From: Phragmitibacter flavus
Lineage (GTDB): Bacteria; Verrucomicrobiota; Verrucomicrobiia; Verrucomicrobiales; Verrucomicrobiaceae
DNA length: 64,000 bases
Reading direction: 5' to 3'
NCBI RefSeq assembly: GCF_005780165.1
Contig: NZ_VAUV01000002.1
Coordinates: 186,001 to 250,000 of the forward strand
Part shown: in pieces, positions 10,224 through 56,115 of the stretch
Position numbering within the stretch: the stretch's first letter is position 1
Layout of the letters: each line of letters starts with the position of its first letter
Program-made: the position numbers and the translations under genes
Notes under the pieces: generated by a model
Told to the model about the DNA's origin: nothing
Seen by the model: only the letters and a program-made list of their open reading frames with translations
Database searches by the model: none

Positions 10224-10628
10224 GAGGCGGTTGATGGCTGGGCGTTGATGCTTTTGAAGTGGCGGCTATCAAGTCGCCGAATGACAGAGTTGCGAGTGGC
10301 CGCGGAGAGGTTTTTCGTGGGGGCGTGTGGTGCTCCTTGATGAGCTGTTAGGCTTTCCTCAGGATGCTCACTCGAATGAGCCCGAACGTAGCAATACGGG
10401 CCGGGCCTTGGGGATTGTCCCGCTGAGACAATGAAAGCTGCCGGAGCGAAAATTGACCTGCTAGTTCGGCTGCCTGGAAGTGCCAAGCGAGTGGCTCACA
10501 AACTTTGAAAAATTTTGTGATACTGGAGTAACGCAGAAGGGAAAAAGACCTGCGCGACTAAGCACAGGCATCTTGGCCGTAATTCTTCCAATCTCAACAG
10601 GCCGGACGATCGAGCTCCTTTTTGTCGA
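10224..10628. other. 405-bp gap between two gene 3' ends, possible structured RNA
   Basis: No protein-coding gene is recognisable here, although both flanking genes point into it. Consecutive perfect hairpins occur: GCTCA-CTCGAA-TGAGC (about 10364-10379), CCCG-N12-CGGG (about 10381-10400) and ATTGTC-CCGCTGA-GACAAT (about 10416-10434). A weaker CACAAA/TTTGTG pair lies near 10498-10521. The segment does not match tmRNA, RNase P, SRP RNA or 6S RNA signatures that I can recall. A plus-strand open frame of 62 codons at 10480-10668 overlaps the lexA 3' end and shows no protein features. Confidence 0.35.
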
Positions 10629-11234
10629 TCAAATGGAAGTGCGAAGCAGGCCGACCATCACTCCTTGAATGCTCAGTTCTTGAGCGGGGATCAAGTCGGG
10701 ATAATTCGGATTCTCTGCGTGCAGGAACGGGCGGTTGTCGACAACCAGGTATCTTTTCAGGGTGCTTTCGCCATCAATGAGAGCGGCGACGACATCGCGT
10801 GGTTTGGGGGGGCGTTGATCAAGAATGACAAAATCGCCATGCTGGATGTGAGCCCCTGTCATTGAGTCGCCGCGAACGCGTAGAGCAAAAGGTTTGGCTC
10901 CAGGGTTGAGACCCATGCTGCGGGTGTCGATGGTCAATTTGCCATCGGCGATTTCGGGGTTGTCGGCGGCGAATCCGGCGGGGATGTCACCATAAATGGG
11001 GATGTCGACGGTTTCGCGATTGATGTCTTCAGGAAACACGACGGCGCGGGCTTTTCCCGCCAGACGGCGGATCACCCCTTTGCGCTCGAGGGCACGCAGG
11101 TGGCTCATGGCGGCGGTTTGACTGGCAAAGCCAAAGTGCTGCTGGATGTCCCTGGTTGAAGGCATCAATCCATTGCGACGCTGGTAACCTTTCAAAAAGA
11201 CCAGCAATTCCTGTTGGCGCGCCGTAAGTAACAT
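10629..11234 (-). CDS. lexA: LexA repressor, SOS regulator
   Basis: This 201-aa protein matches LexA in length and layout. The N-terminal winged helix (residues 1-70; MLLTARQQELLVFLKGYQRR, TRDIQQHFGFASQTAAMSHL) is followed by a S24 peptidase domain. The self-cleavage bond is Ala86-Gly87 in DIPAGFA, the nucleophile is Ser124 (RGDSMTGAHIQHGD) and the base is Lys160 (LIDGESTLKRYLV). When RecA filaments form, LexA should cleave itself and release SOS genes. The start is the ATG whose complement is at 11232-11234, because the family's N-terminal LT.RQ motif begins there. An upstream in-frame codon would add 12 unrelated residues. It is divergent from the TPR gene, and a small palindrome lies just upstream. 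Confidence 0.92.
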   Translation of the reverse strand: MLLTARQQELLVFLKGYQRRNGLMPSTRDIQQHFGFASQTAAMSHLRALERKGVIRRLAGKARAVVFPEDINRETVDIPIYGDIPAGFAADNPEIADGKLTIDTRSMGLNPGAKPFALRVRGDSMTGAHIQHGDFVILDQRPPKPRDVVAALIDGESTLKRYLVVDNRPFLHAENPNYPDLIPAQELSIQGVMVGLLRTSI

Positions 11235-11244
11235 AGGTTCTATT

Positions 11245-11257
11245 TGAATACCATTCA
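11245..11257. promoter_or_regulatory. Candidate LexA operator upstream of lexA
   Basis: TGAAT-ACC-ATTCA is a perfect 5-bp inverted repeat ten bases upstream of the lexA start codon, in the divergent lexA/TPR promoter region. The position suits an autoregulatory site. It differs from TGTTC-N4-GAACA, which I recall as the motif described for Verrucomicrobia, so the assignment is tentative. Confidence 0.3.
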
Positions 11258-11314
11258 GTTGTGCAGGCAAGAAAAATTTCGCTTGTGTGTAGCTTTTTGC
11301 AGCGATAGTGGCTG

Positions 11315-12031
11315 ATGAGAATCACTTTCTTGATTGCATTTGCCCTTGCGCCTGGGGTCTGGCTAATGGCTGCCAGTGAATCGATTAGTCAGGAAACTGC
11401 CCAACCTACGTCGGTTCAGGGAGATCCAGTGGAATTGGGAATTCCGAAACAAGAAAAAACCGGACAGCTTCCTGCGCTCACCACGGCACTATCGGAGCGG
11501 GCCACGCAGGCATTTGGCAAGAAAGACTGGAAAACGGCTCGGGAAGCTTACCTGGAGATGTTGAAAGAGGAGCCTCGAAATGCACTCACGCTGGCAAACC
11601 TTGGTGCAGTTGAACAGCAGGATGGCAAGCTGAAGGAGGCGCAAAGTTATTTTAGCCGGGCTCTACTGATCAATCCGGGATTGCAGCAGACCTGGACGGC
11701 GCTTGGGTTGGTGAGTTATGAGCTGGGGGATTCATACTACGCGGTTTCGGCTCTCACGCGGGCGATTCATGAGGATCCGACGGATGCGCGGGCGCACAAT
11801 TATCTCGCGGCGGCGGTGAAGCGATTGGGTTGGTTGGATGCGGCGGAGGCAGAGTTGCGCCGTGCCATTGAATTGTATCCGGAATATGCGAATGCGCATT
11901 TCAACCTGGCGTTGATGTATTTGGACCGTAAACCGCCCGCGATTGAACTGGCGCGACGCCACTACGAAACCGCGCTTTCCCTCGGGTCTGGCAGGGATGA
12001 ATTGGTGGATGAAAAACTGAAAAAACCCTAA
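11315..12031 (+). CDS. TPR-repeat protein, probably secreted or periplasmic
   Basis: This 238-aa protein has an N-terminal hydrophobic segment (MRITFLIAFALAPGVWLMAA) that looks like a signal peptide. From about residue 60 to 225 it has at least four tetratricopeptide repeats, for example ALTLANLGAVEQQDGKLKEA, YFSRALLINPGLQQTWTALG, DARAHNYLAAAVKRLGWLDA and YANAHFNLALMYLDRKPPAI. TPR repeats mediate protein-protein contacts, so the protein is likely a scaffold in the envelope; its partners are unknown. It is divergent from lexA (80 bp between start codons) and could share that promoter region. The bioF-like gene begins 41 bp downstream on the same strand. Confidence 0.7.
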   Translation: MRITFLIAFALAPGVWLMAASESISQETAQPTSVQGDPVELGIPKQEKTGQLPALTTALSERATQAFGKKDWKTAREAYLEMLKEEPRNALTLANLGAVEQQDGKLKEAQSYFSRALLINPGLQQTWTALGLVSYELGDSYYAVSALTRAIHEDPTDARAHNYLAAAVKRLGWLDAAEAELRRAIELYPEYANAHFNLALMYLDRKPPAIELARRHYETALSLGSGRDELVDEKLKKP

Positions 12032-12072
12032 CCTTCCGCAGGTTTTGAACGTGGTGGAAAGGGTAGGAGGAG

Positions 12073-13269
12073 ATGTTGAGGATGAGTGCTGATCATTTGG
12101 ATTGGGTTGAGGGAGGAGTTGCTGCGCAGTTGGGCGATCTTGATGCGGCAGGACTGCGGCGCCGCTTGCGATTGTTGCAGCGTGATTCAGTGGGCCTGGT
12201 GACACTGGACGGGGGAACAGTGGTCAATTTCTCCTCCAACGATTACCTCGGTCTTGCGGTGTCGGATCAGTTGAAACAGGCGATGGTCGAGGCGGTGTCG
12301 AGGCATGGCGTGGGGTCGGGTGCTTCGCGATTGGTGTGTGGCAACATGGAGTGCCACGAGGCATTGGAAGCGGCTTTGGCCGAGTTCAAGGGGACGGAGG
12401 CGGCGTTGTCGTTCAGCACGGGGCATGCGGTGGCGGTGGGAGTTCTGCCGGCTTTGTGTGGAGCGGGGGATACGATCGTTCTCGACAAATTGAGTCACGC
12501 TTCATTGATTGATGGGGCTCGTTTGAGCGGGGCGACATTGCGGATTTTTCCCCACAACAACCTGGAGAAACTTGAGCGCATGCTGGTGGCGATCCGTGCG
12601 AAGAATGCCAAGGGGCGGATTTTGGTGGTGACGGAATCGGTGTTCAGCATGGATGGAGATGCGGCACCTCTGGCGGCGCTGGTGGAGTTGAAAGACCGGC
12701 ATGGGGCGTGGCTGCTGGTGGACGAGGCACATGCTTTTGGGATTTTGGGTCCGCAAGGACGTGGATTGGTGGCCGGACTTCGATTGGAAAAACGGGTGGA
12801 ATTGCAGATGGGAACGTTGAGCAAGGCGGCGGGAGTGAGTGGCGGATATGTGGCGGCTTCGCGTGAGGTGATTGATTTACTGATCAATCGGGCACGCAGT
12901 TTGATCTACAGCACAGCGCCTCCTCCAGCGGTCGCGGCGACGGCAGCGGCGGCAGTGGCGATGATTGGAGGCGGTGAGGGAGATCGGCGGCGTGAACGAC
13001 TGTGGGCGAATCGCGCGCATCTGCTGAGCTTGTTGCCAGAGTTGGATGCGGATTTGGTGATGGCAGCGATTGTGCCGGTGATGATTGGCGGGGAACGGGA
13101 GGCCGTGGCTGCGGCAGAGCAACTGATGGAGGCAGGATTTTTCGCTCCTGCAATTCGTTACCCGACGGTGGCGCGGAGTCAGGCAAGGTTGCGGGTGACG
13201 TTAAGTGCCTTGCATGAACTGGTCGAGATTGAAGGTCTTGTCGGATGCCTTCGACGGCACATGGTATAG
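12073..13269 (+). CDS. bioF: 8-amino-7-oxononanoate synthase-like alpha-oxoamine synthase
   Basis: This 398-aa PLP enzyme belongs to the alpha-oxoamine synthase family (BioF, Kbl, serine palmitoyltransferase). Visible family motifs are FSSNDYLGLA near the N-terminus, GVGSGASRLVCGNMECHEALE, the PLP-ring stacking and Asp region LLVDEAHAFGILGPQGRG, and the Schiff-base lysine Lys251 in GTLSKAAGVSGGY. BioF condenses pimeloyl-ACP or pimeloyl-CoA with alanine in biotin synthesis. No other biotin gene is adjacent, so the exact substrate is inferred. The ATG at 12073 abuts an AGGAGG (12065-12070) and may be too close to it; the in-frame ATG at 12082 has better spacing. The 3' end overlaps the convergent glycosyltransferase gene by 69 bp. 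Confidence 0.78.
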   Translation: MLRMSADHLDWVEGGVAAQLGDLDAAGLRRRLRLLQRDSVGLVTLDGGTVVNFSSNDYLGLAVSDQLKQAMVEAVSRHGVGSGASRLVCGNMECHEALEAALAEFKGTEAALSFSTGHAVAVGVLPALCGAGDTIVLDKLSHASLIDGARLSGATLRIFPHNNLEKLERMLVAIRAKNAKGRILVVTESVFSMDGDAAPLAALVELKDRHGAWLLVDEAHAFGILGPQGRGLVAGLRLEKRVELQMGTLSKAAGVSGGYVAASREVIDLLINRARSLIYSTAPPPAVAATAAAAVAMIGGGEGDRRRERLWANRAHLLSLLPELDADLVMAAIVPVMIGGEREAVAAAEQLMEAGFFAPAIRYPTVARSQARLRVTLSALHELVEIEGLVGCLRRHMV

Positions 13270-14574
13270 ATGCGGCCCTTTTTGGCGCTGCCGGAAGTCG
13301 CTCCACAATCCGCGACGCAACGCCAGGCCGAGATCGAATCGCATGCTGGTGTGACGGGCGAAGGCTTTCATCAATGCCTGTGCGGTGATTTCCTTGGAGA
13401 AGTGTTGTCGTGCATGCGCGAGTCCTGCTTTTCCCATTTGTTCGCAGCGGGCGGGATCGGAGAGCAGTCCGGCGAGAAGTCCGGCAAGCGCTTCGGGCTG
13501 GCGTTCTTCACAAAGCAAACCAGTCTCTCCATTGATGACCATCTCAGGAACGCCAGCGACATGGGTGGAGACGCAGGGAAGTTCGGCGGCCATGGCCTCC
13601 ATCAACACGGTCGGGAGATTGTCCTTGCCGCCGTCTTTTTCGGTTTTGCAGGCAAGGGCGAAGATTTGGGTTTCCTCGGCGAGCAGACGAATGATTTCGT
13701 TCATCGGCAGGGGGCCGGTGAGGGAGACGAGATGGTTCAGGTTGAGGTCGGCAATCTGGAATCTCAGTTCGGCTTCGAGTGGTCCTTCGCCGACGATGCG
13801 GCAATGGAAATTCAAGCCGCGATCGCGCATCAGGGCACAGGCGGCGATGAGGTCATCGTAGCCTTTCTTCTCGATCAATCTTCCGACGCTGAGAATGCCG
13901 CCAGCTTGCTGTGGATTCTTGGAAGCCTTTTGTTTTTCTTTGGCGCGTTGGAATGGGCCGAGATCGAGTCCGTTGTAAACGCGCCGGACCCTTGCGGAGG
14001 CGGCGGGAAACCGGTGGTGAAGATCGCGCGCAGTGTAGTCGCTGACGGTGACGATCAGGCTGGCATCGCGCGCGAGCGTTTCGGGTTTTGGATGCACGTC
14101 ACCGGGGTTGCAGAAGATGTCGTTGGCATGGGCGGTGAAGCTGTAGCTGAGGCCGTGAAATTTGCGCAACCACCAGCAGGTGCGGGCTCCCACGCCAGCG
14201 AAGTGGGAGTGGGCGTGGTGGACACGGGCACGCAACTGGCGCATGCGATGGCCGATCCAGGCGGCTTCATAAACGCGCAGTTTGTCGGAGCGGTCGTTCC
14301 AGTGTCGGAGGGTGAGCACGACGCTTTGAGGAAGCCGGTTTTGTTTTTTGAGCTTGAGGACTTCTTTGACCAATTGATCTTCCGGCGGCAGAAAGTGAAC
14401 CTGGTCGAAGAGTTCCTTTGGGAAATGCTGGACCGATTCGGCGCGGGTATCGTGAATGGAAAAGATGATGGGACGCAGGCCGAGACGCACCAGTTCAAGC
14501 ACCTCGCGAACGCAAAACGTTTGGGTGAACGTTGGGAAGCGTTCGAAGACGTAGGCGAGGTGGTATTTCGGCAT
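13201..14574 (-). CDS. GT4-family glycosyltransferase (exopolysaccharide type)
   Basis: This 457-aa protein has the GT-B fold of family GT4. The N-terminal acceptor domain begins YHLAYVFERFPTFTQTFCVREV, as in colanic-acid and exopolysaccharide glycosyltransferases. The C-terminal donor domain carries LSVGRLIEKKGYDDLIAAC, CRIVGEGPLEAELR and the E-x7-E-like stretch EKDGGKDNLPTVLMEAMAAELPCVST. It likely transfers a nucleotide-sugar residue to a lipid-linked or polysaccharide acceptor at the inner face of the cytoplasmic membrane, perhaps for the exopolysaccharide exported by the genes at 5.2-10.2 kb. The last 23 codons lie antisense to the end of the bioF-like gene, an unusually long convergent overlap. 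Confidence 0.82.
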   Translation of the reverse strand: MPKYHLAYVFERFPTFTQTFCVREVLELVRLGLRPIIFSIHDTRAESVQHFPKELFDQVHFLPPEDQLVKEVLKLKKQNRLPQSVVLTLRHWNDRSDKLRVYEAAWIGHRMRQLRARVHHAHSHFAGVGARTCWWLRKFHGLSYSFTAHANDIFCNPGDVHPKPETLARDASLIVTVSDYTARDLHHRFPAASARVRRVYNGLDLGPFQRAKEKQKASKNPQQAGGILSVGRLIEKKGYDDLIAACALMRDRGLNFHCRIVGEGPLEAELRFQIADLNLNHLVSLTGPLPMNEIIRLLAEETQIFALACKTEKDGGKDNLPTVLMEAMAAELPCVSTHVAGVPEMVINGETGLLCEERQPEALAGLLAGLLSDPARCEQMGKAGLAHARQHFSKEITAQALMKAFARHTSMRFDLGLALRRGLWSDFRQRQKGPHLYHVPSKASDKTFNLDQFMQGT

Positions 14575-14648
14575 GGATGAAAAATCAGCGGCATGGTGAA
14601 ACGCAAATCACCTGACTGCAACCAGAACGCCTTGAGTCGTGCGAATTG

Positions 14649-15050
14649 TCACTTTTTGGTGCGAAAACTGGTGCCGCAATACATGCAGCGGAATTTGCCA
14701 CGAATCAGGGCATTGATGATGACGGCCCAGCCGTGCCCGATGACGGGAATGCGCATGGCGTGTTTGTGTTTGTGGGCGGCATTAGAGTGCAGGATGGTCC
14801 CATGGCAGAGGGGGCATCGGAGATGCCGGGCCTGGGTGAAGATGAAGACTCGCAGGGCACCGAACAGGATGATGAGTCCGAGGGCAATGGCAGCGCTGGT
14901 GCGGTCGCGCTGTTGGAAGACATCAATCACGAACCAGACACAGGCAAGGAGGGTCAGTGAAGCGACGATGCGAAGCACCGACAAGACAATGAGCAGACGA
15001 GAGCGACCGAAATACCGGGAACGGGTGCGTTTCTGTGGAGATTCGGTCAT
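14649..15050 (-). CDS. Small membrane protein with a C-terminal zinc ribbon
   Basis: I do not recognise this 133-aa protein as a named family. It has a basic N-terminus (residues 1-19), two predicted membrane helices (about 20-43 and 53-72), and a C-terminal soluble part with two Cys pairs, CPLC (Cys79, Cys82) and CMYC (Cys122, Cys125), that would form a zinc ribbon. A His-rich stretch (AAHKHKHAM) lies between the pairs. The layout suggests a membrane-tethered metal- or protein-binding module on the cytoplasmic side. It is divergent from the SET-domain gene across a 137-bp gap. Confidence 0.6.
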   Translation of the reverse strand: MTESPQKRTRSRYFGRSRLLIVLSVLRIVASLTLLACVWFVIDVFQQRDRTSAAIALGLIILFGALRVFIFTQARHLRCPLCHGTILHSNAAHKHKHAMRIPVIGHGWAVIINALIRGKFRCMYCGTSFRTKK

Positions 15051-15187
15051 GAAGAAGTGTTAACCAATGTTAAAATTGCGTCGGGCTCAAGCTTCTTGTG
15101 ACGATTGGTGAAAATAGTTGGTGAAGGTGAAGTTGAAGGTTTGGAAGAACGTGTCTGTGGCTTGCTTTCATCGATTCCTGCATCACC

Positions 15188-15754
15188 ATGGCGTTTGTCG
15201 AACTGCTTATGGCTGCAAAAAATCACGAAATTCTCTATCAGATTCGAAATTCCCGCATTCATGGTCGGGGTCTTTATGCCAGTCGCGACATTCCTAAAGA
15301 CACGTGGATTGTTCAGTATCTTGGGGAGAAAGTGGACAAGGAGGAGAGTGACCGCCGTGCCAATGCGCTGCTGGAAAAGGCGAAGTCAACCGGGGGTGCG
15401 AAGGTTTACATCTTCATCCTGAACGATAAATGGGACATTGATGGGGATGTCGAATACAACGATGCGCGGTTGATGAACCATTGTTGTGATCCCAACGTGG
15501 AGGCGCAGACCTGGCAGGACAAGGAGATCTGGTTTGTTTCGCTGAAAGACATCAAGAAAGGGGAGGAGTTGTTTTTCAACTATGGATTTGATCTCGAGAG
15601 TTGGGAGGATCATCCCTGCCGTTGTGGTGCGGAACGTTGTGCGGGTTACATCGCGGGTGAGGAATACTGGCCAGCTCTACGCCGCAAGCTCAGTGCGAAA
15701 AAGGCATGGGCGACTCGCCGGAAGAGTGCCGGGAAGAAGAAGCGCGTTTCTTAG
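15188..15754 (+). CDS. SET-domain protein lysine methyltransferase
   Basis: This 188-aa protein has a complete SET domain: NSRIHGRGLYASRDI (residues 21-35), the AdoMet-binding NHCCDPN (97-103) and the catalytic-tyrosine region EELFFNYGF (126-134). A post-SET zinc cluster CRCGAERCAGYI follows (Cys144, Cys146, Cys151). The C-terminal tail from about residue 165 is Lys/Arg-rich (RRKLSAKKAW, RRKSAGKKKRVS) and could bind nucleic acid or be a self-methylation target. In bacteria such proteins methylate lysines on ribosomal, nucleoid or, in pathogens, host proteins; the target here is unknown. The start is ATG 15188, with an alternative at 15209. The stop overlaps the convergent metalloprotease gene by 4 bp. 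Confidence 0.85.
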   Translation: MAFVELLMAAKNHEILYQIRNSRIHGRGLYASRDIPKDTWIVQYLGEKVDKEESDRRANALLEKAKSTGGAKVYIFILNDKWDIDGDVEYNDARLMNHCCDPNVEAQTWQDKEIWFVSLKDIKKGEELFFNYGFDLESWEDHPCRCGAERCAGYIAGEEYWPALRRKLSAKKAWATRRKSAGKKKRVS

Positions 15755-17565
15755 CGGGAAAGCTTTGGATCGAGCCAGAGGCCCCAGTCGCCATTTTTGC
15801 CATCGCCTCCGTCCTCGACCATGAGTTCGAGGGTGTCGATGTTGGTGAGGTCCACCTTGATGGATTGGAGGGGGGAGTCGGCTGAGGTTAGCTTGGATTT
15901 GAAGAGTTCACGACCGTCGCCTTTGATGAGGAAGATGACCTTGCCGTATTGACCGGTGGCAACGCCTGGCGTGATCAGGAGTTGTTTCCAAGCTTTGCCG
16001 AGCTGGAATTGATGACGGGCCGGGGCATGGGCATAATAGCCGCGTTCGAAGATCTGGCCGGAGGAGGAGAGCCAGGGTTGAGGGGAAGGGAGTTTGTCGG
16101 TGGAGGGTTTGCCATAGCCGACTTCCATCTTTTCGGGTTTGGTGTCGCAGAGACTGAGGGTGCGGATGTCTTCGGGGATGTTGGCGGGGGTGGTTTCGGG
16201 TGGAGGTGATGAACTCCAGATGCGCTGGGCGATGGCGTGCGTTTTGACGAGGATCGGGTCATTGCTGTTGGAAATTGAGTCCAAGGGATTGACTCCACCG
16301 GCAACAGCAAACCTGGCAGCCAGAGATTCCAGATGCAGTTGTATTTGGGCGTTGGAGACGTCGATCTGGCCGTCCGGGGTTGGTTGATAACCGAGACCAC
16401 GCAGGGAGGTGGTCATTCCATTGACATGACAGGCGACGAGGTTGATGACGCCGGGTTTGGCGATGGGAGGATCGGTGAACGTGATTTCAAATGAACCGTC
16501 GGCATTGGGAATGGTGGTCTGGGTGGTGGCATCGTAGTCGCCGCCGCCTTTGGGGTCGGTGTAGCCGACGATGGCGTAGGTGGGAATGGCCGAAGTGATT
16601 TGGCCGCTGACGGTGATGATTTTGCCATTGATGCTGATTTGCGTGACGGAAAGATTGGCGACGATGGGATCGGTGAGAGCTTTGTTTGATCCGGTGAAGA
16701 AGGGGTGGCTGGCGAGTCGCATGCCGTGGGCGAGAGTGAGGAAGGAGCCTTTGCTTTCGTCGCGTTTTTCTTCGCCAAAGGTGCGGTTGCCGCTGCCCAT
16801 AAGGGCGGTGCCGAAGGCGGCGGCTTCGTCGGAGCGTTCCCGATTGTGAGGAAGGCCGAGGGCATGGCCGATTTCATGGACGACGCCACCGACGAAGATG
16901 GAATTGTATTTGCCCAACGAGATGCGGCCGTATTGTCCGTCCTGGAGATGGTTGGCCTTGTCGGCGAGCAGGTCGGGATCGAGCAGGGCGGAGTCGACCT
17001 GCCACGCGGTGCCGCCTTTGGCATTGCCTCCGGCGTAGTAGGGACTGTTCTGGCGCATGGTGCGTTTGACGGGGTCCCAGACTGACATGTTGCAGAAGAT
17101 GACGAGGGTTTCGTCGCGTCCGTCGAGGGACTTGATGATGCCGGCCTGACGCAGGACGGGGAGGCATTCCTTGCGGATTTCATTGCCGCTTTCGCCGGAG
17201 TAATGGGCGTAGGGATGGGTGCCTTTGACGAGGTGGATGCTGAGCAGGCCGTCCGGTTGATGATCGAGGGGGAGCCGGCGAACGGGGAAACCCTGGCGGC
17301 GGAGTTCCTTGTCGTAGAAATCGGCAGTGGTTTCGAGGACGCGGGAAAGGCGTTCGCGCCATTGGGGCTGGGGTTCGCGGTCGGACGGGGTCCAGTAGAT
17401 GATATGGAGTTTGCGTTCGAGGTCGCCGGGAAGGGGACCGTGGAAGGCGGTGAGCGTGGCGGCGGCTTTGGGGACCTGGGTCGCGATGTCGGAGGCGGGA
17501 TCGAGTGCGTGACTGAGGCCGGGGATTGTCAGCGTGAGGAGCAGGGCAGCAATGAAAGGGTGCAT
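15751..17565 (-). CDS. Secreted metzincin-type zinc protease with C-terminal NPCBM-like domain
   Basis: This 604-aa protein has a signal peptide (MHPFIAALLLTLTIPGLSHA). The zinc-binding signature HEIGHALGLPH places His230, Glu231, His234 and His240 in the metzincin pattern HExxHxxGxxH. A beta-rich region follows (about 295-390), and the end (about residues 480-604; IRTLSLCDTKPEKMEVGYGK ... GQYGKVIFLIKGDGREL ... DTLELMVEDGGDGKNGDWGLW) resembles the NPCBM carbohydrate-binding module of family GH98. The likely role is extracellular proteolysis with attachment to glycans, fitting a polymer-degrading lifestyle; the substrate is unknown. The gene is convergent with the SET gene. Confidence 0.75.
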   Translation of the reverse strand: MHPFIAALLLTLTIPGLSHALDPASDIATQVPKAAATLTAFHGPLPGDLERKLHIIYWTPSDREPQPQWRERLSRVLETTADFYDKELRRQGFPVRRLPLDHQPDGLLSIHLVKGTHPYAHYSGESGNEIRKECLPVLRQAGIIKSLDGRDETLVIFCNMSVWDPVKRTMRQNSPYYAGGNAKGGTAWQVDSALLDPDLLADKANHLQDGQYGRISLGKYNSIFVGGVVHEIGHALGLPHNRERSDEAAAFGTALMGSGNRTFGEEKRDESKGSFLTLAHGMRLASHPFFTGSNKALTDPIVANLSVTQISINGKIITVSGQITSAIPTYAIVGYTDPKGGGDYDATTQTTIPNADGSFEITFTDPPIAKPGVINLVACHVNGMTTSLRGLGYQPTPDGQIDVSNAQIQLHLESLAARFAVAGGVNPLDSISNSNDPILVKTHAIAQRIWSSSPPPETTPANIPEDIRTLSLCDTKPEKMEVGYGKPSTDKLPSPQPWLSSSGQIFERGYYAHAPARHQFQLGKAWKQLLITPGVATGQYGKVIFLIKGDGRELFKSKLTSADSPLQSIKVDLTNIDTLELMVEDGGDGKNGDWGLWLDPKLSR

Positions 17566-17613
17566 CTTGGTAAGAGAGAACGCACCGGGAGAATCTTCGT
17601 TAGAGTTTTTAAT

Positions 17614-18186
17614 CTATTCGAGATCAAAGGGAGCGGGCAACTCGCTGGAAGGGAAGCGTTTGACGATGAGTTTGGGGGTGATGTAGCCGATGAGGCGCGC
17701 TTGTTTCCACGCGACGGCATCCCAGCGGATGACGGGAAGTTCGAGGATGGCGACGGCACAGGTGGGCATGTCGCCGATGCTGTTGCGCTGCAGGAGTTGG
17801 TTGGCGAAGTCGCTGATGCCGTTGTTGTGGGCGAAGAGCATGATGCTTTGCCAGCTGTTGTCAAAGGACTGGACGATTTGCAGGAGGCTGTTGGCTTCGG
17901 CCAGGTAGGCACGAGGTTCGGTGAGGATGATTTCGGGGGGGAGGTTCATTTCGGCCTGCATGAGTTCGGCCGTTTGCTGGGTGCGCGTCGCGCTGCTGGC
18001 GATGAGGTGGTCCGGCGCGGGGAGGATGGCGGGACTGGATTCGAGGCCGAAGTAGGTTTTGGCGAGGAAGCGGGCCATCTCAGGGGCGTTGCGTTCGCCA
18101 CGTTCGTTGAGGGTGCGGTCGTGATCGAGTTGACCGGGATTGTCCCAACTGGATTTGGCGTGGCGGACGAGGGTAAGGTATTTCAT
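17614..18186 (-). CDS. sixA: SixA-like phosphohistidine phosphatase
   Basis: This 190-aa member of the histidine phosphatase superfamily begins MKYLTLVRHAKSSWDNPGQL, the SixA-type RHxK-S-W motif with the catalytic His at residue 9. It also has DHDRTLNERGERNAPEMARF, a second Arg region SSATRTQQTAE and the C-terminal His in IMLFAHNNGISDFAN. SixA removes phosphate from phosphohistidine in His-containing phosphotransfer domains or PTS proteins. It lies 48 bp upstream of the metalloprotease gene on the same strand, though no functional link is obvious. The second phosphatase of this superfamily in the window, at 48881, is of the phosphoglycerate-mutase-like type. Confidence 0.82.
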   Translation of the reverse strand: MKYLTLVRHAKSSWDNPGQLDHDRTLNERGERNAPEMARFLAKTYFGLESSPAILPAPDHLIASSATRTQQTAELMQAEMNLPPEIILTEPRAYLAEANSLLQIVQSFDNSWQSIMLFAHNNGISDFANQLLQRNSIGDMPTCAVAILELPVIRWDAVAWKQARLIGYITPKLIVKRFPSSELPAPFDLE

Positions 18187-18287
18187 TGATTCAGAGCGGC
18201 GGCGTCGACGGTGGTGGTGAGTAGTTCGGAAAATGCGATAGCACAGTATGGGGGGATTTCAGCAAAGAGTTGGACAGGACGTGGGTG

Positions 18288-19283
18288 ATGGTAAAGATGG
18301 GGGTGGTGTCAGAGTTGTCAGATTCAATGGTGCGTCCGCGGGTGCCGTGGTGGATGTGGGGAAATGTGTTGAGTTTGGATGCGCCTCTGGTGGCGGCAGG
18401 GTGGCTGTGGATGCTGGCAGAGGTTTCGGGGGTGAAGCTGCCGTGGGCTTGCTTTGCGGTGTTGTGGATGACGGTGTGGTTCATTTATGTGCTGGACCGG
18501 ACGATGGATGGTTGGCGATCAGAAGGGGAGGGGGAGCAGACGGCAAGGCATAGGTTTTATCTTCGGCACCGCGCGTTCATGGTGAGGGAGGTGTTGCCGC
18601 TGATGGGGGTGGTGACGGGGTGGCTGGCGATGACGCAGATTCCGGTCGGGTTGATGGAGCGTGGGATGGGATTGGGATTGGTGGTGGGGTGGTATTTGTG
18701 GAATCACGCAGGAAGCTCGAGGCGTTGGATGGTGGGCATTGGAAATGCGCTGATGGCGATGGTGGTGGTGGGGTGCGTCTGGTGGAGCGGAGTTGAGCAA
18801 TGGTCCTGGGTCGGGCCGCTGTTGCTGGTGGTTTTGGTCCTGCGGTTGGTAGGAGGACGGCTTGGAATCTCGAAGGAGATCTGTTGCGGGGTGGTGTTTG
18901 CTTTGGGGTGCGGGCTGAGTGTGCATTTTTATTCGATGGATCAGGTTGCTGGATTTTTTTCGGTCGAGGTGATGGGGTTGGCGATGCTGGCGGTGTTGAA
19001 CTGTGTGGGAATTGCCGCTTTGGAGAGTGGAAAGGAGGATGCTTCGAGTGCTTCGATGTTGTCGGGAAAGAGGTTCACCGTGCTGGTGGCCGGGGTGGTG
19101 GGTGGGCTTGCGGGAGCGTGGTGGGTTGGAACTGGCGGGGTTTTGCTGGAGGCGGCATTTTTTGGAGTGGTGTCGATGGGTTTGGTGTATCACTGGGCAC
19201 CCAAAATGCCGGGAGAACTGCCGAGAGTGCTGATGGATGTCGCACTGCTGGTGCCGGTGGGCTGGGTTTGGTGGTGGCGTTAA
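18288..19283 (+). CDS. Polytopic membrane protein of unknown function
   Basis: This is an integral membrane protein of up to 331 aa with about eight predicted helices. The motif YVLDRTMDGWRSEGEGEQTA followed by RHRFYLRHRAFM recurs, as I recall, in uncharacterised Verrucomicrobiota and Planctomycetota membrane proteins with a UbiA-like helix pattern. The Asp and Arg residues after helix 2 could be a catalytic or metal site, but no UbiA NDxxD motif is present and I do not assign an enzyme. Start choice is uncertain: ATG 18288, ATG 18297 and ATG 18327 are all in frame. The cytosine deaminase gene follows immediately on the same strand. Confidence 0.6.
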   Translation: MVKMGVVSELSDSMVRPRVPWWMWGNVLSLDAPLVAAGWLWMLAEVSGVKLPWACFAVLWMTVWFIYVLDRTMDGWRSEGEGEQTARHRFYLRHRAFMVREVLPLMGVVTGWLAMTQIPVGLMERGMGLGLVVGWYLWNHAGSSRRWMVGIGNALMAMVVVGCVWWSGVEQWSWVGPLLLVVLVLRLVGGRLGISKEICCGVVFALGCGLSVHFYSMDQVAGFFSVEVMGLAMLAVLNCVGIAALESGKEDASSASMLSGKRFTVLVAGVVGGLAGAWWVGTGGVLLEAAFFGVVSMGLVYHWAPKMPGELPRVLMDVALLVPVGWVWWWR

Positions 19284-50124: not shown

Positions 50125-50766
50125 TTAGGGCTTTTGAAGGCGGGCTTCGATGGCTTTGCGGAAGAGGGGGGAGAGGGCTTCGATTTGAAGGGATTTTTCG
50201 AGGTCGTCGCGGGTGCCTTCGTGGAATTTGTAGAGTCCGAGGACGGTGCGAACGGTCATGGCGTTCGGATCGCGCTGGATGATTTCGATGGGGTCGCCGA
50301 CGGTGATGGTGCCAGGTTGGAGGACTTGATAATAGAGTCCGCTGTGGCCGCTTTCGAGAAAGGGTTTGAGTATTTCGGTGCTGCCGATTTTGTGCGCGAA
50401 CTTGGAGCAGGGGAGCCGGCAGCTGGTGACCTGGAGGACAACGCTGCCCATGCGGTGGATGTCGCCGACGAAGACCTCGGTTTCGAGGAGGCCGGAGGTG
50501 GTGAGATTTTCGCCGAAGGTGCCATGATGAAGGTGATCGCGATGCAGGAATTGTTGCCAGTGGGGGTAGTGTTCGATGGCGTAGCTGTAGACGGCTTGAT
50601 GGGGCCCGCCGTGAACGGTGAGGTCGGCCTGGGCGTCACCTTCGAGGCCGAGAGTATGGACGGCAACGGGATCGAAGACGGGTTCTTTGTAGATGCCGGT
50701 GGGGGCGTCTTTGCCGTTGATGTTGACGGTCTTGACGAGGGATCGGTTGATGGAGAGAACTTGCAT
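50125..50766 (-). CDS. MOSC-domain protein (YiiM-like)
   Basis: This 213-aa protein has the MOSC fold (molybdenum cofactor sulfurase C-terminal-like). It contains DGKxAPTGIYKEPV, HTLGLEGDAQADLTVHGGPH with QAVYSYA, the HGTFGENLTTSGLLETEVF block, and VTSCRLPCSKFAHKIGSTEI with its conserved Cys. The YiiM type reduces N-hydroxylated bases and may detoxify base analogues. It is divergent from the nuclease-translocase operon with 63 bp between the starts. Confidence 0.85.
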   Translation of the reverse strand: MQVLSINRSLVKTVNINGKDAPTGIYKEPVFDPVAVHTLGLEGDAQADLTVHGGPHQAVYSYAIEHYPHWQQFLHRDHLHHGTFGENLTTSGLLETEVFVGDIHRMGSVVLQVTSCRLPCSKFAHKIGSTEILKPFLESGHSGLYYQVLQPGTITVGDPIEIIQRDPNAMTVRTVLGLYKFHEGTRDDLEKSLQIEALSPLFRKAIEARLQKP

Positions 50767-50829
50767 GGCCGGGCGGGGTGGCGGGGATTGGTCCTTGACG
50801 GGATTAGTTCATCCGCCCACCAATGTGGC

Positions 50830-51519
50830 ATGAATGTGGATGGCAAACAACGGGAACGGTTGCTCGCGAAGTTTCGTGGCAAGGTGTCTTTGACGAAGAG
50901 TGGGGTTGGCACGTCGAAAGGGGTGCTTGAGACGTTGAGGGAGCTGATGGAGAAAGGCGAGGTGGTGAAGTTGGGAACGCATTATTTTTTGGCGGGATCG
51001 GCCCCGACGATGGAACGCGAAAAGTTGCGGCTGGACAGGATGTTGCGGGGGACGCACAAGTTGTTCAAGGGGGGCGCTTTGCGATTGTTGCCGAAGGTGA
51101 ATCTGCCAAGCACGCGGGCGGCGCTGGATGCGTTGGTGGACGAGCGGGTGGTGTTGAGGTTGGAGATTTTGAAGGACAAAAAGGCGGGGTTTCTTTATCT
51201 GCATAGTTGCCATGCATCGGCTGGAGTTGCGGGAGATATGGGGGAAGATTTGGGCGGAAGGATTCGGAGGGCCTATGGGTCACTGGTGAAGCAGTCGGCC
51301 AATCTTTCGGTCTTTATTGCAGATCTTGCGGTGGAGGCAGGATTGGAGACAAAAGTGTTGCAGGAATGGTTGCAAACGATGGTGGTTGAGCGAGGGCTTG
51401 GCACGCTTGATGAGGGGGATTGGTCGTATGCCTCCGAAGCGCAGCGAGCGGCGGCGATGGTGTTTCGTGACCGTCGCCGGCTCTATGTGCGGCTGCATGA
51501 GGAAGACCGTTTATCATGA
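50830..51519 (+). CDS. Unknown protein with winged-helix-like segments; first gene of the translocase operon
   Basis: This 229-aa protein has no recognisable named domain but looks like a string of DNA-binding helical units. Residues 1-55 (KFRGKVSLTKSGVGTSKGVL, ELMEKGEVVKLGTHYFLAGS) suggest a winged helix. Residues 85-130 (NLPSTRAALDALVDERVVLR) a second, and residues 158-225 (SVFIADLAVEAGLETKVLQE with GDWSYASEAQRAAAMVFRDR) a third. It is probably cytoplasmic and may bind DNA or recruit the downstream ATPase. The ATG at 50830 is the only start that fits; the long open frame upstream is antisense to the MOSC gene. Its stop overlaps the next gene by 4 nt (ATGA). Confidence 0.6.
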   Translation: MNVDGKQRERLLAKFRGKVSLTKSGVGTSKGVLETLRELMEKGEVVKLGTHYFLAGSAPTMEREKLRLDRMLRGTHKLFKGGALRLLPKVNLPSTRAALDALVDERVVLRLEILKDKKAGFLYLHSCHASAGVAGDMGEDLGGRIRRAYGSLVKQSANLSVFIADLAVEAGLETKVLQEWLQTMVVERGLGTLDEGDWSYASEAQRAAAMVFRDRRRLYVRLHEEDRLS

Positions 51520-53648
51520 ATCCTTTTGGTCGAGATATTGTCAAAAATCCCCGAGATCATCCGGTGACGGTGCGCACGTTGAACCTGGAGGTTTTGGACG
51601 GACTGGTGGCGGCGTTTGCACCGTTGGTGAGTGCGCCGTTGCCGCGTGAACCGCTGGCGGCGGGAAAGGCGCAATTGGTGTTGTCGCCCGCACCTGGGTA
51701 TGGGAAGAGTCACTTGATTGCGCGTTTGTATGAGTCGCTGGGCAAAGAGGTGAATGTGGTGGGGTTTAGTCCATTTCAGTCGGTGAGCTTGTGCTGGCAG
51801 TCGCTGTTGTTGCAGATGGTGAAGGAGATGAATGGTCCGGTGGAGGGCGAGGATTTTGGCAGGACGAGGCTGACGATGTGGGCGGAGAGTTTGGTGCGGT
51901 TGCTGGTCGCGGAGGCGTTGCGCGAGGGGTTGTTGCCGCATCCAGAGGCACCGATCGCGGAGCGTTGGGTGATGGAGCATTTGACGATTGGTCTAGAGGG
52001 GGATGAGGGGGGATGGAATCCGTGGTTGCATGAGTCTTTTTTTAAAGTGTGCCGTCCGGTGTGGCGGCGACTGCTGGCGCGGCGCGGGGTGTCGATGGAA
52101 GATGATGCGTGGTTGCTGGTGTTGTTTCATTATGCGTCCAGTGCGCCGTTTTCGGACAAACAGCAGCATTGTCTGGCGTGGTTGCGGGGGCAGAGTTTGG
52201 AGGAGGACGCACTGGCGGAGCTAGGGCTGGGTGCGTCACATGGTCGGGAGGCGGGGAGTGTGGATGCGTTGAACGAGTTGTGTCGTCGGAAGGTTCATGA
52301 GTGGTGTGGACTGGCGGCGTTTTATCGTCCGTTCTTGTTTTGTTTTGATCAGACGGAGGTTTATGCGCAGGACGACCGTCTGGCGAAAACGTTCGGTCGC
52401 GTGATCGCGGAACTGGTGGGAGAAGTGCCGCATCACTTGACGGTGGTGACGGCGAACCAGGCGGTGTGGGAGTCGAAGTTGCGTCCGGCGATGGATGTGG
52501 CGGATCAGCACCGGTTTCAGTTGTCGCAGGTGTTGCGCGGATTGGATCGTCGTGAGGGGGAGGAGTTAATTCGTTTACTGATCGTGGAACAGGCAGATCA
52601 ACGTGAGGCGTGTGGGCGGGTGACGGATGGGGAGTGGTTGTCGGGGTTGTTTCCAATGCCGGGGAGCAACATTCCTGCGCGTGAGTTTTTGCATCTTTGT
52701 CAGCGACGTTGGGAGGGAGGTGAGGTGAAGGGTCCGCAAAAGCTGGTGGTCTCGGTGAAGGTGGATCTGTCGGAGCGTTTCAACAGTTTGCGTGTGGAGT
52801 TTGCCGCGAATCCGCGTTTGCAGGAGTATGATCCGGACGTGTTTCGCTGGCTGGCGGAGGTGGGGTTGGTGCGTGGTCAGGATTTGGGATGCGTGCGGGT
52901 GGATCATCCGCATGGTTATGTGGAAATGAAGTGGCATGTGCCGGGGGAGGCGGTGGTGCGTTTCGGGTTTGCGCATGCGGTGTCGGATGATCACCGGGTG
53001 TGGAAGTCGCTGGCGATGTTTGCGCGGCAGATGAAGGAGCAGGACGGGGAGCCGGTGTCGAAGCTGGTGTTGTTTCGTCCGCCGCCACAGCAGCGTTGTG
53101 CGATCCCGAAGTCAACCTGGGTGGTGAATGGTCAGTTGATTGCTGAAGCGCGTCGTGATTGTTTGCAGTTGTTCGATCTGACGGCGGATGAGACGGCGGA
53201 GTTGTATGCGGCGCGCAAGCTGTATCTCGATGCGGAGGCCGGGGATCTGGAAGGCATGGGCGGTGCGGAGGTGATGGAGTTTTTGACCAAGCAACTGGCG
53301 TATTGGCGCACGCGATTGCTGGAAGTGGCGAAGGTTGATGTTGGAGACGTTAAGCAGGAGGCTCCGAGGCTGGTCGAAGTGGTGAAGGTGCAGCCGGAGG
53401 TGAAAACAGACAGGGCGGCGAAGGGGCGGTTGCCATTTGGTCGTAGGAATGCGGGTCAGCCGATGCCGCAGTTGGAGCAGCGGGTGCGGAGTTTTGTGAG
53501 GGACGAGCGGTTTGTCAGCCTCGAAGCACTGGTGGGTCATCTTGGTGCGGAGGTATCGACGGAGCAGGCGCTTGCGTGTTGTGAGGGACTCGGCGAGGTG
53601 CAGACGGAACGGTTGGAAAATTGCACGATTTTGATATGGCAAGGATAA
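51516..53648 (+). CDS. P-loop ATPase with possible C-terminal winged helix
   Basis: I do not recognise a named family for this 710-aa protein. It has an AAA/STAND-like nucleotide site: Walker A SPAPGYGKSH (Lys64, Ser65), a Walker B LFCFDQTE (residues 274-281) and a sensor-like TVVTANQAVW (309-318). Residues 390-560 form an uncharacterised region, and the last 60 residues (RVRSFVRDERFVSLEALVGH, then EGLGEVQTERLENCTILIWQ) look like a winged helix. It probably uses ATP to load, regulate or position the nuclease-motor protein of the next gene. Start ATGA overlaps the previous stop; the stop overlaps the following start by 13 nt. Confidence 0.65.
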   Translation: MNPFGRDIVKNPRDHPVTVRTLNLEVLDGLVAAFAPLVSAPLPREPLAAGKAQLVLSPAPGYGKSHLIARLYESLGKEVNVVGFSPFQSVSLCWQSLLLQMVKEMNGPVEGEDFGRTRLTMWAESLVRLLVAEALREGLLPHPEAPIAERWVMEHLTIGLEGDEGGWNPWLHESFFKVCRPVWRRLLARRGVSMEDDAWLLVLFHYASSAPFSDKQQHCLAWLRGQSLEEDALAELGLGASHGREAGSVDALNELCRRKVHEWCGLAAFYRPFLFCFDQTEVYAQDDRLAKTFGRVIAELVGEVPHHLTVVTANQAVWESKLRPAMDVADQHRFQLSQVLRGLDRREGEELIRLLIVEQADQREACGRVTDGEWLSGLFPMPGSNIPAREFLHLCQRRWEGGEVKGPQKLVVSVKVDLSERFNSLRVEFAANPRLQEYDPDVFRWLAEVGLVRGQDLGCVRVDHPHGYVEMKWHVPGEAVVRFGFAHAVSDDHRVWKSLAMFARQMKEQDGEPVSKLVLFRPPPQQRCAIPKSTWVVNGQLIAEARRDCLQLFDLTADETAELYAARKLYLDAEAGDLEGMGGAEVMEFLTKQLAYWRTRLLEVAKVDVGDVKQEAPRLVEVVKVQPEVKTDRAAKGRLPFGRRNAGQPMPQLEQRVRSFVRDERFVSLEALVGHLGAEVSTEQALACCEGLGEVQTERLENCTILIWQG

Positions 53649-55492
53649 ACGTGAGTCAGCTCAAGCAGGCGTGTGTGGATCGCGGATGGTTGGACCGCTG
53701 GTTGGATGATCCGGCCACGCCGGTTCCGATGCCCATGACTCCTGCGGGTGGGATACCGGTGAACGGACGTTTGTTTCATCAATTGGTGGCGGGATTGGTG
53801 CAGAAGCTGTGTGTGCCTGATGCGTCGGCGCCATTGTTGGCGTTGCGCAGTCGGGAGCAGATTTGGGCGCTGCTTTGGGATGAACTGGCGGCGGCGAAGG
53901 TTCAGGCGTTGGTGCGGAGTCAGTCAGCGGAGGCGGCCTTGCATCTGGCAGAGGCGTTGAAGGCGTGGTGTCAGCGGCTCGCGGAATTGCGGGCGAACTG
54001 TCCCAATTTTAAGAGCTGGCGGAGTGCGTTGTTGACGCATGAGTTTGACTTGAAACGGGTGGCGATTCAGGTGTCGGATGGCGGGGTGGTGGAGGTGAGC
54101 GGTCGGCCTGATTCCGTGCAGGTGGACCCGGTGCATGGGATTGTGGTGGTGGACTACAAACTTTCCCGTGGCAGCAATGGCACGTTGGATCTGCTGCAAC
54201 TGGCGATCTATGCGAGGATGTTGCGATTGGCGAAGCCGGGACTCAATTTTGCGGGTCTGCTGGAGTATTATGAACCTGGGTTGCATCTGGTGCCGAAGAC
54301 GGAGGCGCAGTTGAATGCGATCTTTGAGCATGAGGTGCAACCGGTGTTGGACCGAATTGCGGGACATGAAAAATTGATGTCGAAGTTGAAATCGGTGCAG
54401 GTCGGTCACGAGGCGGTGCGGCTGTCCTGGCAGCCGAAGGCGGAGCCGGATCTCGGTCGGGATATTGAGAAGGCTTATAATTCCTTTAAAGTGCCGGTGC
54501 AGGTGATGGGACGTGTGGAGGCGCCGCAACTGGTGCGGTATTTGATTAGGCCGGGACTGGGGATCAGCTTTGCCAAATTGCGTAGCAATGCGGTGAATTT
54601 GAAGATCCAACTGGGCCTGCACGCGGAGCCGCTGGTGATGCCCGGGTCGGGACATGTCATCTTTGATGTGGTGAAGGAGAAGCCTGACACCGTTTGGTGG
54701 CAGGATGAGGTGCAACGGGCGGAACTGACGGCTCATGCAAGCCCGCTTGCGCTGGCGCTAGGGGTTGACATCAACAACCGGCTGATTCTCGCGGACCTAT
54801 GTGATTCGAACACGGCGCATGCGTTGATTGGTGGTTCGAGCGGCAGTGGAAAGAGCGAGTTGTTGAAGTCATTGGTGGCGACACTGGTGAAGCGCAACCG
54901 GCCGGAGACGTTGCAGTTAACGTTGATTGATCCGAAACTGCTGACCTTTGGTGGCATTGTGGAAAATGCCTATCTCACGGGTCCGATTTTGCGGGACATT
55001 GAGGAGTCGTTGGCCTGTCTGCATCTGGCGGTGGAAGATATGGAGCGGCGATATGAAATCCTGTTGGCGGAAAATCATACCCGACTTGGTGATCGCATTG
55101 CTCAGGGGAAGACCGACCTTCCGTTCAGGGTGATCATTTTTGATGAGTTTGCGGATTTGATCAATAGTGGTCGTGAAGAGAAGAAGGAGTTTGAGCGGCT
55201 GACGAAGCGGCTGTCGGCGAAGGGTCGCGCGGCCGGGGTGCATCTGATCATTGCCACGCAGCGGCCGGACAAGGATGTGGTGACCGGGCAGTTGAAGGCG
55301 AATCTTCCAATGAAGATTTGTCTGCGGGTGACCAATGCGGTGAACTCACAAATTTTGTTGGATGAACCGGGGGCGGAACATCTGTTGGGTCGGGGGGATT
55401 TCTTAAGTCAGACAGGTTCAACGCCGGTGCGTGGCCAGTCGTTGTTCATCCCGCAGAAGGAATTTTTGGAGTTGTTTGCCGACAAGATTTGA
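53636..55492 (+). CDS. PD-(D/E)XK nuclease fused to an FtsK/SpoIIIE DNA translocase
   Basis: This 618-aa protein has two parts. The N-terminal RecB-type nuclease shows VNGRLFHQLVAG (His48), VSGRPDSVQVDP (Asp159), IVVVDYKLSRG (Asp173, Lys175) and LLQLAIYARML (188-193), the D...DxK...QxxxY layout. The C-terminal part, from about 297, is an FtsK motor: beta-domain APQLVRYLIRPGLGISFAKL, Walker A IGGSSGSGKSELL (Lys406), Walker B RVIIFDEFADLI (Asp503, Glu504), then IIATQRPDKDVVTGQLKANL and LDEPGAEHLLGRGDFL. The gamma DNA-recognition domain of cell-division FtsK and its N-terminal membrane helices are absent. It probably translocates along DNA and cuts it. The start is ATG 53636. A TTG at 53621 is in frame but lies deeper inside the upstream gene. 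Confidence 0.8.
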   Translation: MARINVSQLKQACVDRGWLDRWLDDPATPVPMPMTPAGGIPVNGRLFHQLVAGLVQKLCVPDASAPLLALRSREQIWALLWDELAAAKVQALVRSQSAEAALHLAEALKAWCQRLAELRANCPNFKSWRSALLTHEFDLKRVAIQVSDGGVVEVSGRPDSVQVDPVHGIVVVDYKLSRGSNGTLDLLQLAIYARMLRLAKPGLNFAGLLEYYEPGLHLVPKTEAQLNAIFEHEVQPVLDRIAGHEKLMSKLKSVQVGHEAVRLSWQPKAEPDLGRDIEKAYNSFKVPVQVMGRVEAPQLVRYLIRPGLGISFAKLRSNAVNLKIQLGLHAEPLVMPGSGHVIFDVVKEKPDTVWWQDEVQRAELTAHASPLALALGVDINNRLILADLCDSNTAHALIGGSSGSGKSELLKSLVATLVKRNRPETLQLTLIDPKLLTFGGIVENAYLTGPILRDIEESLACLHLAVEDMERRYEILLAENHTRLGDRIAQGKTDLPFRVIIFDEFADLINSGREEKKEFERLTKRLSAKGRAAGVHLIIATQRPDKDVVTGQLKANLPMKICLRVTNAVNSQILLDEPGAEHLLGRGDFLSQTGSTPVRGQSLFIPQKEFLELFADKI

Positions 55493-55506
55493 GGAGAGTG
55501 GTTGCG

Positions 55507-56115
55507 ATGAGCGGAGATCTGTTTGGTGCGGCGGATTACAGTGTGAATCTTTTACCTTCTGATGGAGAGGTGAACTATCATGGGCCAATTTTTGGAGTGG
55601 ATGAATGTGGACGGTTGTTTGAAAAGCTATTGGCCGAAGTTGCATGGCGGCATGATGAAGCGGTGATGTTTGGCAAACGGATTGTGACGGCGCGCAAGGT
55701 GGCTTGGTATGGCAATGAGGGGTTCAAATATACTTATTCGGGAACGACAAAGGAGGCGCTGCCGTGGTCGGACACGTTGAGGGAGATAAAGGCGAAGGTG
55801 GAGACGTTGAGCGGGGCGAAGTTCAACTCGTGTCTGTTGAATTTGTATCATCATGGCGAGGAGGGAATGGGCTGGCACAGTGATGATGAGAAGGAGCTGG
55901 CGCGGGATGCTGCCATTGCATCGGTAAGTTTGGGGGCGGCGCGGAAGTTTTGTTTCAAGCACAAGCAGAGTGGCGAGCGTGTGGACGTGGGGTTGGAGAA
56001 TGGGAGTTTGCTGGTGATGCTCGGGGCGACGCAGCGGTATTGGTTGCATCGGTTGCCACCGTCGAAGCGGGTGAAGGGGGCGCGTATCAACCTGACGTTT
56101 CGGTTGATGGCATAG
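55507..56115 (+). CDS. alkB: AlkB-like 2-oxoglutarate/Fe(II) dioxygenase
   Basis: This 202-aa AlkB-family enzyme has the iron site HSD (His124, Asp126) and distal His181 in YWLHRLP. The 2-oxoglutarate Arg is Arg193 or Arg199 in GARINLTFRL. It has the family block FNSCLLNLYHHGEEGMGWHS and the upstream RKVAWYGNEGFKYTYSGTTK. AlkB oxidatively removes alkyl lesions (1-methyladenine, 3-methylcytosine) from DNA or RNA. The ATG at 55507 is preceded by GAGGAGAG with good spacing. It starts 14 nt after the stop of the nuclease-motor gene, indicating the same transcript. Confidence 0.9.
   Translation: MSGDLFGAADYSVNLLPSDGEVNYHGPIFGVDECGRLFEKLLAEVAWRHDEAVMFGKRIVTARKVAWYGNEGFKYTYSGTTKEALPWSDTLREIKAKVETLSGAKFNSCLLNLYHHGEEGMGWHSDDEKELARDAAIASVSLGAARKFCFKHKQSGERVDVGLENGSLLVMLGATQRYWLHRLPPSKRVKGARINLTFRLMA

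Follow-up and report, generated by a model that had tools for sequence, protein, structure and literature searches.

Genes A, B and C of the window (the whole 64,000-nucleotide stretch of Phragmitibacter flavus DNA that was analysed) belong to a real module that is conserved across two phyla and is predicted to encode a DNA motor, a nuclease, a loader-type ATPase and, less surely, a DNA-binding protein. On balance we think it probable that the three proteins make up a three-part motor-nuclease of the Orc/CDC6-coupled capture type that would intercept foreign DNA, be it of phage, plasmid or conjugative origin. The first-pass annotation had read four genes, alkB included, as a possibly undescribed defence, plasmid-restriction or repair machine; the conserved operon has stood up to analysis, most plausibly as a defence or anti-plasmid machine, whereas AlkB as a component and the novelty have not. 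The features are as follows:

50830-51519, forward strand: gene A, 229 aa, probably tandem winged helices (three by reading of the sequence)
51516-53648, forward strand: gene B, 710 aa, putative Orc/Cdc6-like P-loop ATPase with a conserved middle domain and a C-terminal wHTH-like segment
53636-55492, forward strand: gene C, 618 aa, predicted nuclease and FtsK motor in one chain
53636-54415, forward strand: N-terminal part of C, residues 1-260, predicted PD-(D/E)XK domain of the RecB/AdnAB/Cas4 type
54416-55492, forward strand: C-terminal part of C, residues 261-618, predicted FtsK-alpha and FtsK/SpoIIIE motor domain
55507-56115, forward strand: alkB, 202 aa, 2OG-Fe(II) dioxygenase, a co-directional neighbour outside the conserved module

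The open reading frames agree with the gene layout first described for 50830-56115: A and B share an ATGA overlap, B runs 13 nt into C and alkB follows C after a gap of 14 nt. The frame of gene A is open far upstream, over a divergent MOSC gene (50134-51519), and its likely start is the ATG at 50830. This MOSC-type gene is the upstream neighbour and a convergent sodium/solute symporter gene lies downstream (names read from sequence). With a GC content of 0.56-0.59, A, B and C hardly differ from the window as a whole (0.567), so composition gives no hint that they arrived recently. Neither a tRNA nor an Rfam element was found near this copy of the module, and around it promoter and terminator patterns did not rise above chance.

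Protein B served as the query against 241 Verrucomicrobiota genomes and afterwards, in profile form, against 388, seven of which carry the module (the window genome, G008, G042, G069, G149, G263 and G004); a search with C in close relatives added one more, G408. ORF maps place A directly upstream of B in every module genome. In the cyanobacterium Pseudanabaena sp. PCC 7367 a conjugative plasmid encodes in succession a hypothetical protein (266 aa), a P-loop NTPase (680 aa) and an FtsK protein (688 aa), the latter two of which align with B and C of G004 along the greater part of their length (E 5e-20 and 2e-67, respectively); A is assigned in G004 and Pseudanabaena by position and size only, because its sequence similarity is not significant. 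The order A-B-C is constant at all nine loci (the window, seven other Verrucomicrobiota and the Pseudanabaena plasmid), and since it recurs at eight loci besides the window the grouping is not due to chance; the co-occurrence elsewhere that the first-pass annotation had made a test of its proposal holds for the first three genes. In six genomes (G008, G042, G069, G149, G263 and G408) B and C form one polypeptide of about 990-1190 aa, the fused gene of G149 being broken by a frameshift within FtsK, and it is therefore very likely that B and C act together. Searches elsewhere returned little: viral contigs scanned with a B alignment held no B relative, plasmids searched with B gave only Pseudanabaena and distant AAA ATPases, phages searched with the fused B-C protein gave general FtsK motors only, and genome contigs scanned with the whole motor protein produced a single match, an irrelevant FtsK.

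Several Verrucomicrobiota families, among them the window family (L113:5819-7984, L060, L063, L064, L115 and L117) and another family (L116:7257-9203, L118:6479-8425 and L119:6746-8815), conserve orphan relatives of B (650-930 aa) that have neither A nor C beside them; in L116 and L118 the orphan adjoins a gene of 374 aa whose sequence reads as citrate-synthase-like. The orphan copy of the window genome gives no match in Pfam.

Judged by its motifs and profile matches, protein C is a PD-(D/E)XK nuclease of the RecB/AdnAB/Cas4 type joined to FtsK-alpha and an FtsK motor. In the window protein the nuclease domain yields no more than weak Cas4 matches (E 2e-4 to 7e-4), and the relatives exceed the Pfam cut-off for PDDEXK_1 (E 3e-11 to 1e-14). 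The motifs GxxFH, GxxD, (D/E)xK and QxAxY constitute the full RecB-family set, and the active-site residues are invariant in seven homologues, the window copy included, down to 18% identity. Profile matches in the PDB comprise AdnAB (E 8e-8), Cas4 (4ic1, E 2e-5) and, weakly, exonuclease V (E 0.06); the Pseudanabaena protein carries Cas4-like cysteines of the iron-sulphur type (CPICPQFNKC). The motor matches FtsK (PF01580, E 7e-30) and FtsK-alpha (PF17854, E 0.0012) in Pfam as well as the FtsK structures 2iuu/6t8b (E 7e-48), and carries a Walker A motif (GSSGSGKS at 400), a Walker B motif (DEFAD) and the sensor TQRP.

Protein B appears to be an Orc/Cdc6-like P-loop ATPase in which the ATPase (residues about 1-400) is followed by a conserved domain (about 430-610) and a wHTH-like segment (about 640-710, read from sequence). 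Its Walker A (GYGKS, 61-65) and Walker B (CFDQTE, 276-281) motifs are kept in nine members as the cores GxGK[ST] and CFDQxE. Pfam reports a weak AAA_22 match for the window protein alone (E 0.016) and AAA_16 above the curated cut-off for the relatives P0009 and P0030, and the best PDB profile match is CDC6 (E 0.012). Protein A is probably a tandem winged-helix protein; it diverges fast, and its winged-helix matches lie only near E 0.003-0.1. Among its homologues, TBPIP/Hop2 wHTH signals occur in three of six members (best E 0.0033), the PDB yields Hop2 at a weak E of 0.086 and HTH_65 is weakly matched at 165-208 (E 0.08), while the last of the three winged helices read by eye closes with a GDWS-type motif that is conserved. 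AlphaFold models built from the single sequences of A and B were uninformative (pLDDT 34 and 36, respectively).

Trees of B and of the FtsK part recover the same well-supported groups (window and G408; G008 and G263; G042 and G149 with G069; G004 and Pseudanabaena), showing that the two travel together. Seven of the nine members still carry the nuclease motifs, and the domain is absent from the fused proteins of G408 (L136:8557-11607) and G042 (L056:7051-10020); as their sisters, the window copy and G149, retain it, the nuclease has been lost at least twice independently. Between G042 and G149 the dN/dS ratios of A and B (about 0.23 and 0.35) indicate purifying selection. G408 is the closest relative of the window copy, with 67% identity in the FtsK part, which changes more slowly between the two than A and B (dN 0.26 versus 0.43 and 0.45), synonymous sites being saturated in this comparison.

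This domain set was published in 2024 as a computational prediction of anti-invader systems of the Orc/CDC6-coupled 'HerA/FtsK capture' type (Rakesh, Aravind and Krishnan 2024; PMC10853773), an idea since extended to BREX-related capture systems (PMC12839542), so the module is not undescribed as had been supposed. The main text of the 2024 paper portrays capture systems that combine an Orc/CDC6-clade AAA+ protein, with an extra domain ahead of a C-terminal wHTH, with an active REase and a HerA/FtsK motor that in one set bears FtsK-alpha; a subset has a separate protein of two to four wHTH domains, to which A, with its weak winged-helix matches, may correspond by its position, and the domains are variously joined on one or several polypeptides, as they are in the module. 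Three of the five features that we tested against this account were found: the Orc/CDC6-clade AAA+ protein as B, the active REase as the intact predicted catalytic motifs of C, and the motor with FtsK-alpha as the remainder of C. For this reason we file the module as a probable member of the predicted capture kind. The conserved domain at about 430-610 of B occupies the position of the published inactive REase; it matched neither REase models nor the PDB. Set against the systems described in that main text, the module differs in its RecB/AdnAB/Cas4-type nuclease, where an AbiJ-type and a second, unnamed family are reported, and in having members that lack the nuclease. We found no experiments in the literature on any module member or Orc/CDC6 capture system; so far as our search showed, such systems exist as computational predictions only. 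The first-pass annotation could place neither A nor B; indeed no PADLOC model matched them, those of DndFGH, SspFGH and herA operons included.

Systems such as HerA-NurA, SIR2-HerA and DUF4297-HerA likewise couple a hexameric DNA pump to an effector. The module motor, however, reads as FtsK/SpoIIIE with FtsK-alpha and yields only weak HerA matches, and its nuclease lies within the motor chain instead of being a separate NurA, which argues against membership of HerA-NurA. The nuclease domain resembles those of AdnAB and Cas4 by sequence profile, with the iron-sulphur type cysteines of the Pseudanabaena copy, but its partner is an FtsK motor and not a UvrD-type helicase or Cas1. Loci inspected in Rhizobium (dndC-dndD-FtsK) and Halobaculum (FtsK) belong to other HerA/FtsK systems. 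The locus on the Halobaculum plasmid (L069:2515-11758), likely another capture-type locus, comprises a DruA gene, several unknowns, a true Cdc6/Orc gene and an FtsK gene whose N-terminus may be a PD-(D/E)XK domain. In several Verrucomicrobiota (L082-L086) an FtsK of 600-730 aa adjoins a conserved repeat-like protein of about 480-525 aa.

As a capture machine, A (through its winged helices) and B would attach to foreign DNA at a site or structure and would load C by ATP-driven assembly, whereupon its FtsK motor would pump the double-stranded DNA while the tethered RecB/Cas4-type nuclease would cut it or degrade ends exposed in replication, segregation or transfer. The sequences themselves show the domains, the intact catalytic motifs, the constant gene order, the fusion of B with C and their co-evolution; complex formation, loading, the direction of pumping, the trigger, the sparing of self DNA and any protective effect are all parts of the model that we infer. 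That the three proteins form one machine is strongly suggested by the B-C fusion and by co-evolution; that its target would be foreign DNA follows from the patchy distribution, the copy on a conjugative plasmid and the published associations. A spread over seven of 388 Verrucomicrobiota genomes and a conjugative plasmid is what would be expected of an accessory conflict system, and the module may hence act against phages or plasmids. Counting against defence, the window neighbourhood resembles housekeeping genes and not a defence island, and the defence-island setting that the first-pass annotation had suggested looking for was not borne out either, as no recognised defence system was seen beside the eight Verrucomicrobiota loci except for an FRG-domain gene at one. 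At that locus (G069, L057:3227-6333), genes for the FRG-domain protein, Ku and an ATP-dependent ligase follow immediately after the fused module. On the Pseudanabaena plasmid (L066:272-4409), an SNF2 helicase gene with DUF3670 and a SWIM zinc-finger gene adjoin it.

What was least expected about the module is that the nuclease has been lost repeatedly. Cutting by C can therefore not be indispensable in all lineages, and pumping or blocking alone may have value. A conceivable though less favoured reading is therefore that of a family of Orc/Cdc6-loaded FtsK motors whose core act would be the gripping and pumping of foreign DNA, with cutting by a RecB/Cas4-type domain as a lineage-specific extra that has repeatedly been lost; pumping could then block the replication, segregation or packaging of foreign DNA. 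The two losses, the B-C fusion and the lack of a general link to phosphorothioation are details added here to the published prediction. With three genes, often two by fusion, and natural nuclease-less members, the compact module would offer an easy test object for capture systems and could reveal whether protection against foreign DNA takes pumping alone or cutting as well.

We regard as unlikely a function in housekeeping or stress DNA repair, in which the FtsK motor and the AdnAB/RecB-type nuclease would resect or clear chromosomal DNA that is broken or stalled, while AlkB would mend alkylated bases as part of the same response. The nearest solved relatives of the nuclease (AdnAB, Cas4 and exonuclease V) do process DNA ends and orphan relatives of B are conserved in several families, but a module as rare and patchy as this one, which has twice lost its nuclease while retaining A, B and FtsK, speaks against such a role. 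The adjoining Ku and ligase genes of G069 would also suit repair, yet they occur at a single locus, and the proximity of alkB to C is likewise confined to the window. The alkB product (2OG-FeII_Oxy_2, PF13532, E 2e-36) has close homologues in 12 of 37 other relatives, all without the motor gene of the module, and three of their neighbourhoods that were mapped contain no A, B or C; G408, where the module is present, has no close AlkB. Counted among the working parts by the first-pass annotation, AlkB lies beside the module only in the window, is absent from the eight other loci and was rejected as a component; it is an unrelated neighbour.

FtsK and Orc-like ATPases also serve in the maintenance of plasmids and transposons. 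A role of the module in transferring, segregating or stabilising a plasmid or an integrated element, in place of defence, would agree with this, with the copy on the conjugative plasmid and with the nuclease-less versions that retain motor and ATPase. We consider it improbable, given that the surroundings of the window copy revealed no relaxase, integrase, par locus or tRNA, that the GC content of this copy is near the window average and that most members retain the nuclease motifs.

SspFGH (PMC8092258) is similar in outline, with three genes, a Walker A ATPase and a C-terminal FtsK-type motor, and SspH is the best PADLOC match of C (E 8e-52). This match is confined to the FtsK part, SspH measures about 1760 aa against the 618 aa of C, the true SspF of G029 and B have common ground only over about 30 columns round Walker A, and the module has a different gene order with neither an SspG-like protein nor an sspBCD partner. 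DndFGH/DptFGH, described in PMC10853773 as an ATP-binding protein, a triple-wHTH protein and a REase-HerA/FtsK protein, is similarly arranged, but DndH (about 1700 aa and eight domains in that description) is far longer than C and the PADLOC models of DndF, DndG and DndH gave no match to A, B or C at E up to 1; membership of either system was rejected. That the module is a phosphorothioate-reading restriction arm working in trans with host dnd genes, in the manner of these trios, is highly improbable: the window genome does possess dndC (over the curated cut-off), dndD-like, dndB and cysteine desulfurase genes, but none is adjacent to the module, and dndC occurs in one of seven module genomes against 11 of 388 overall, so that the family as a whole does not depend on phosphorothioation. 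The phosphorothioation locus of the window genome (L153, G000:C8:194000-213900) carries dndC, the dndD-like ATPase, dndB and the cysteine desulfurase gene at 10328-18497, and in addition encodes a 557-aa P-loop protein that reads like the HerA/FtsK type. A genuine SspFGH is present in Verrucomicrobiota in G029 (L081:7261-16715), where likely sulfur-modification genes adjoin it.
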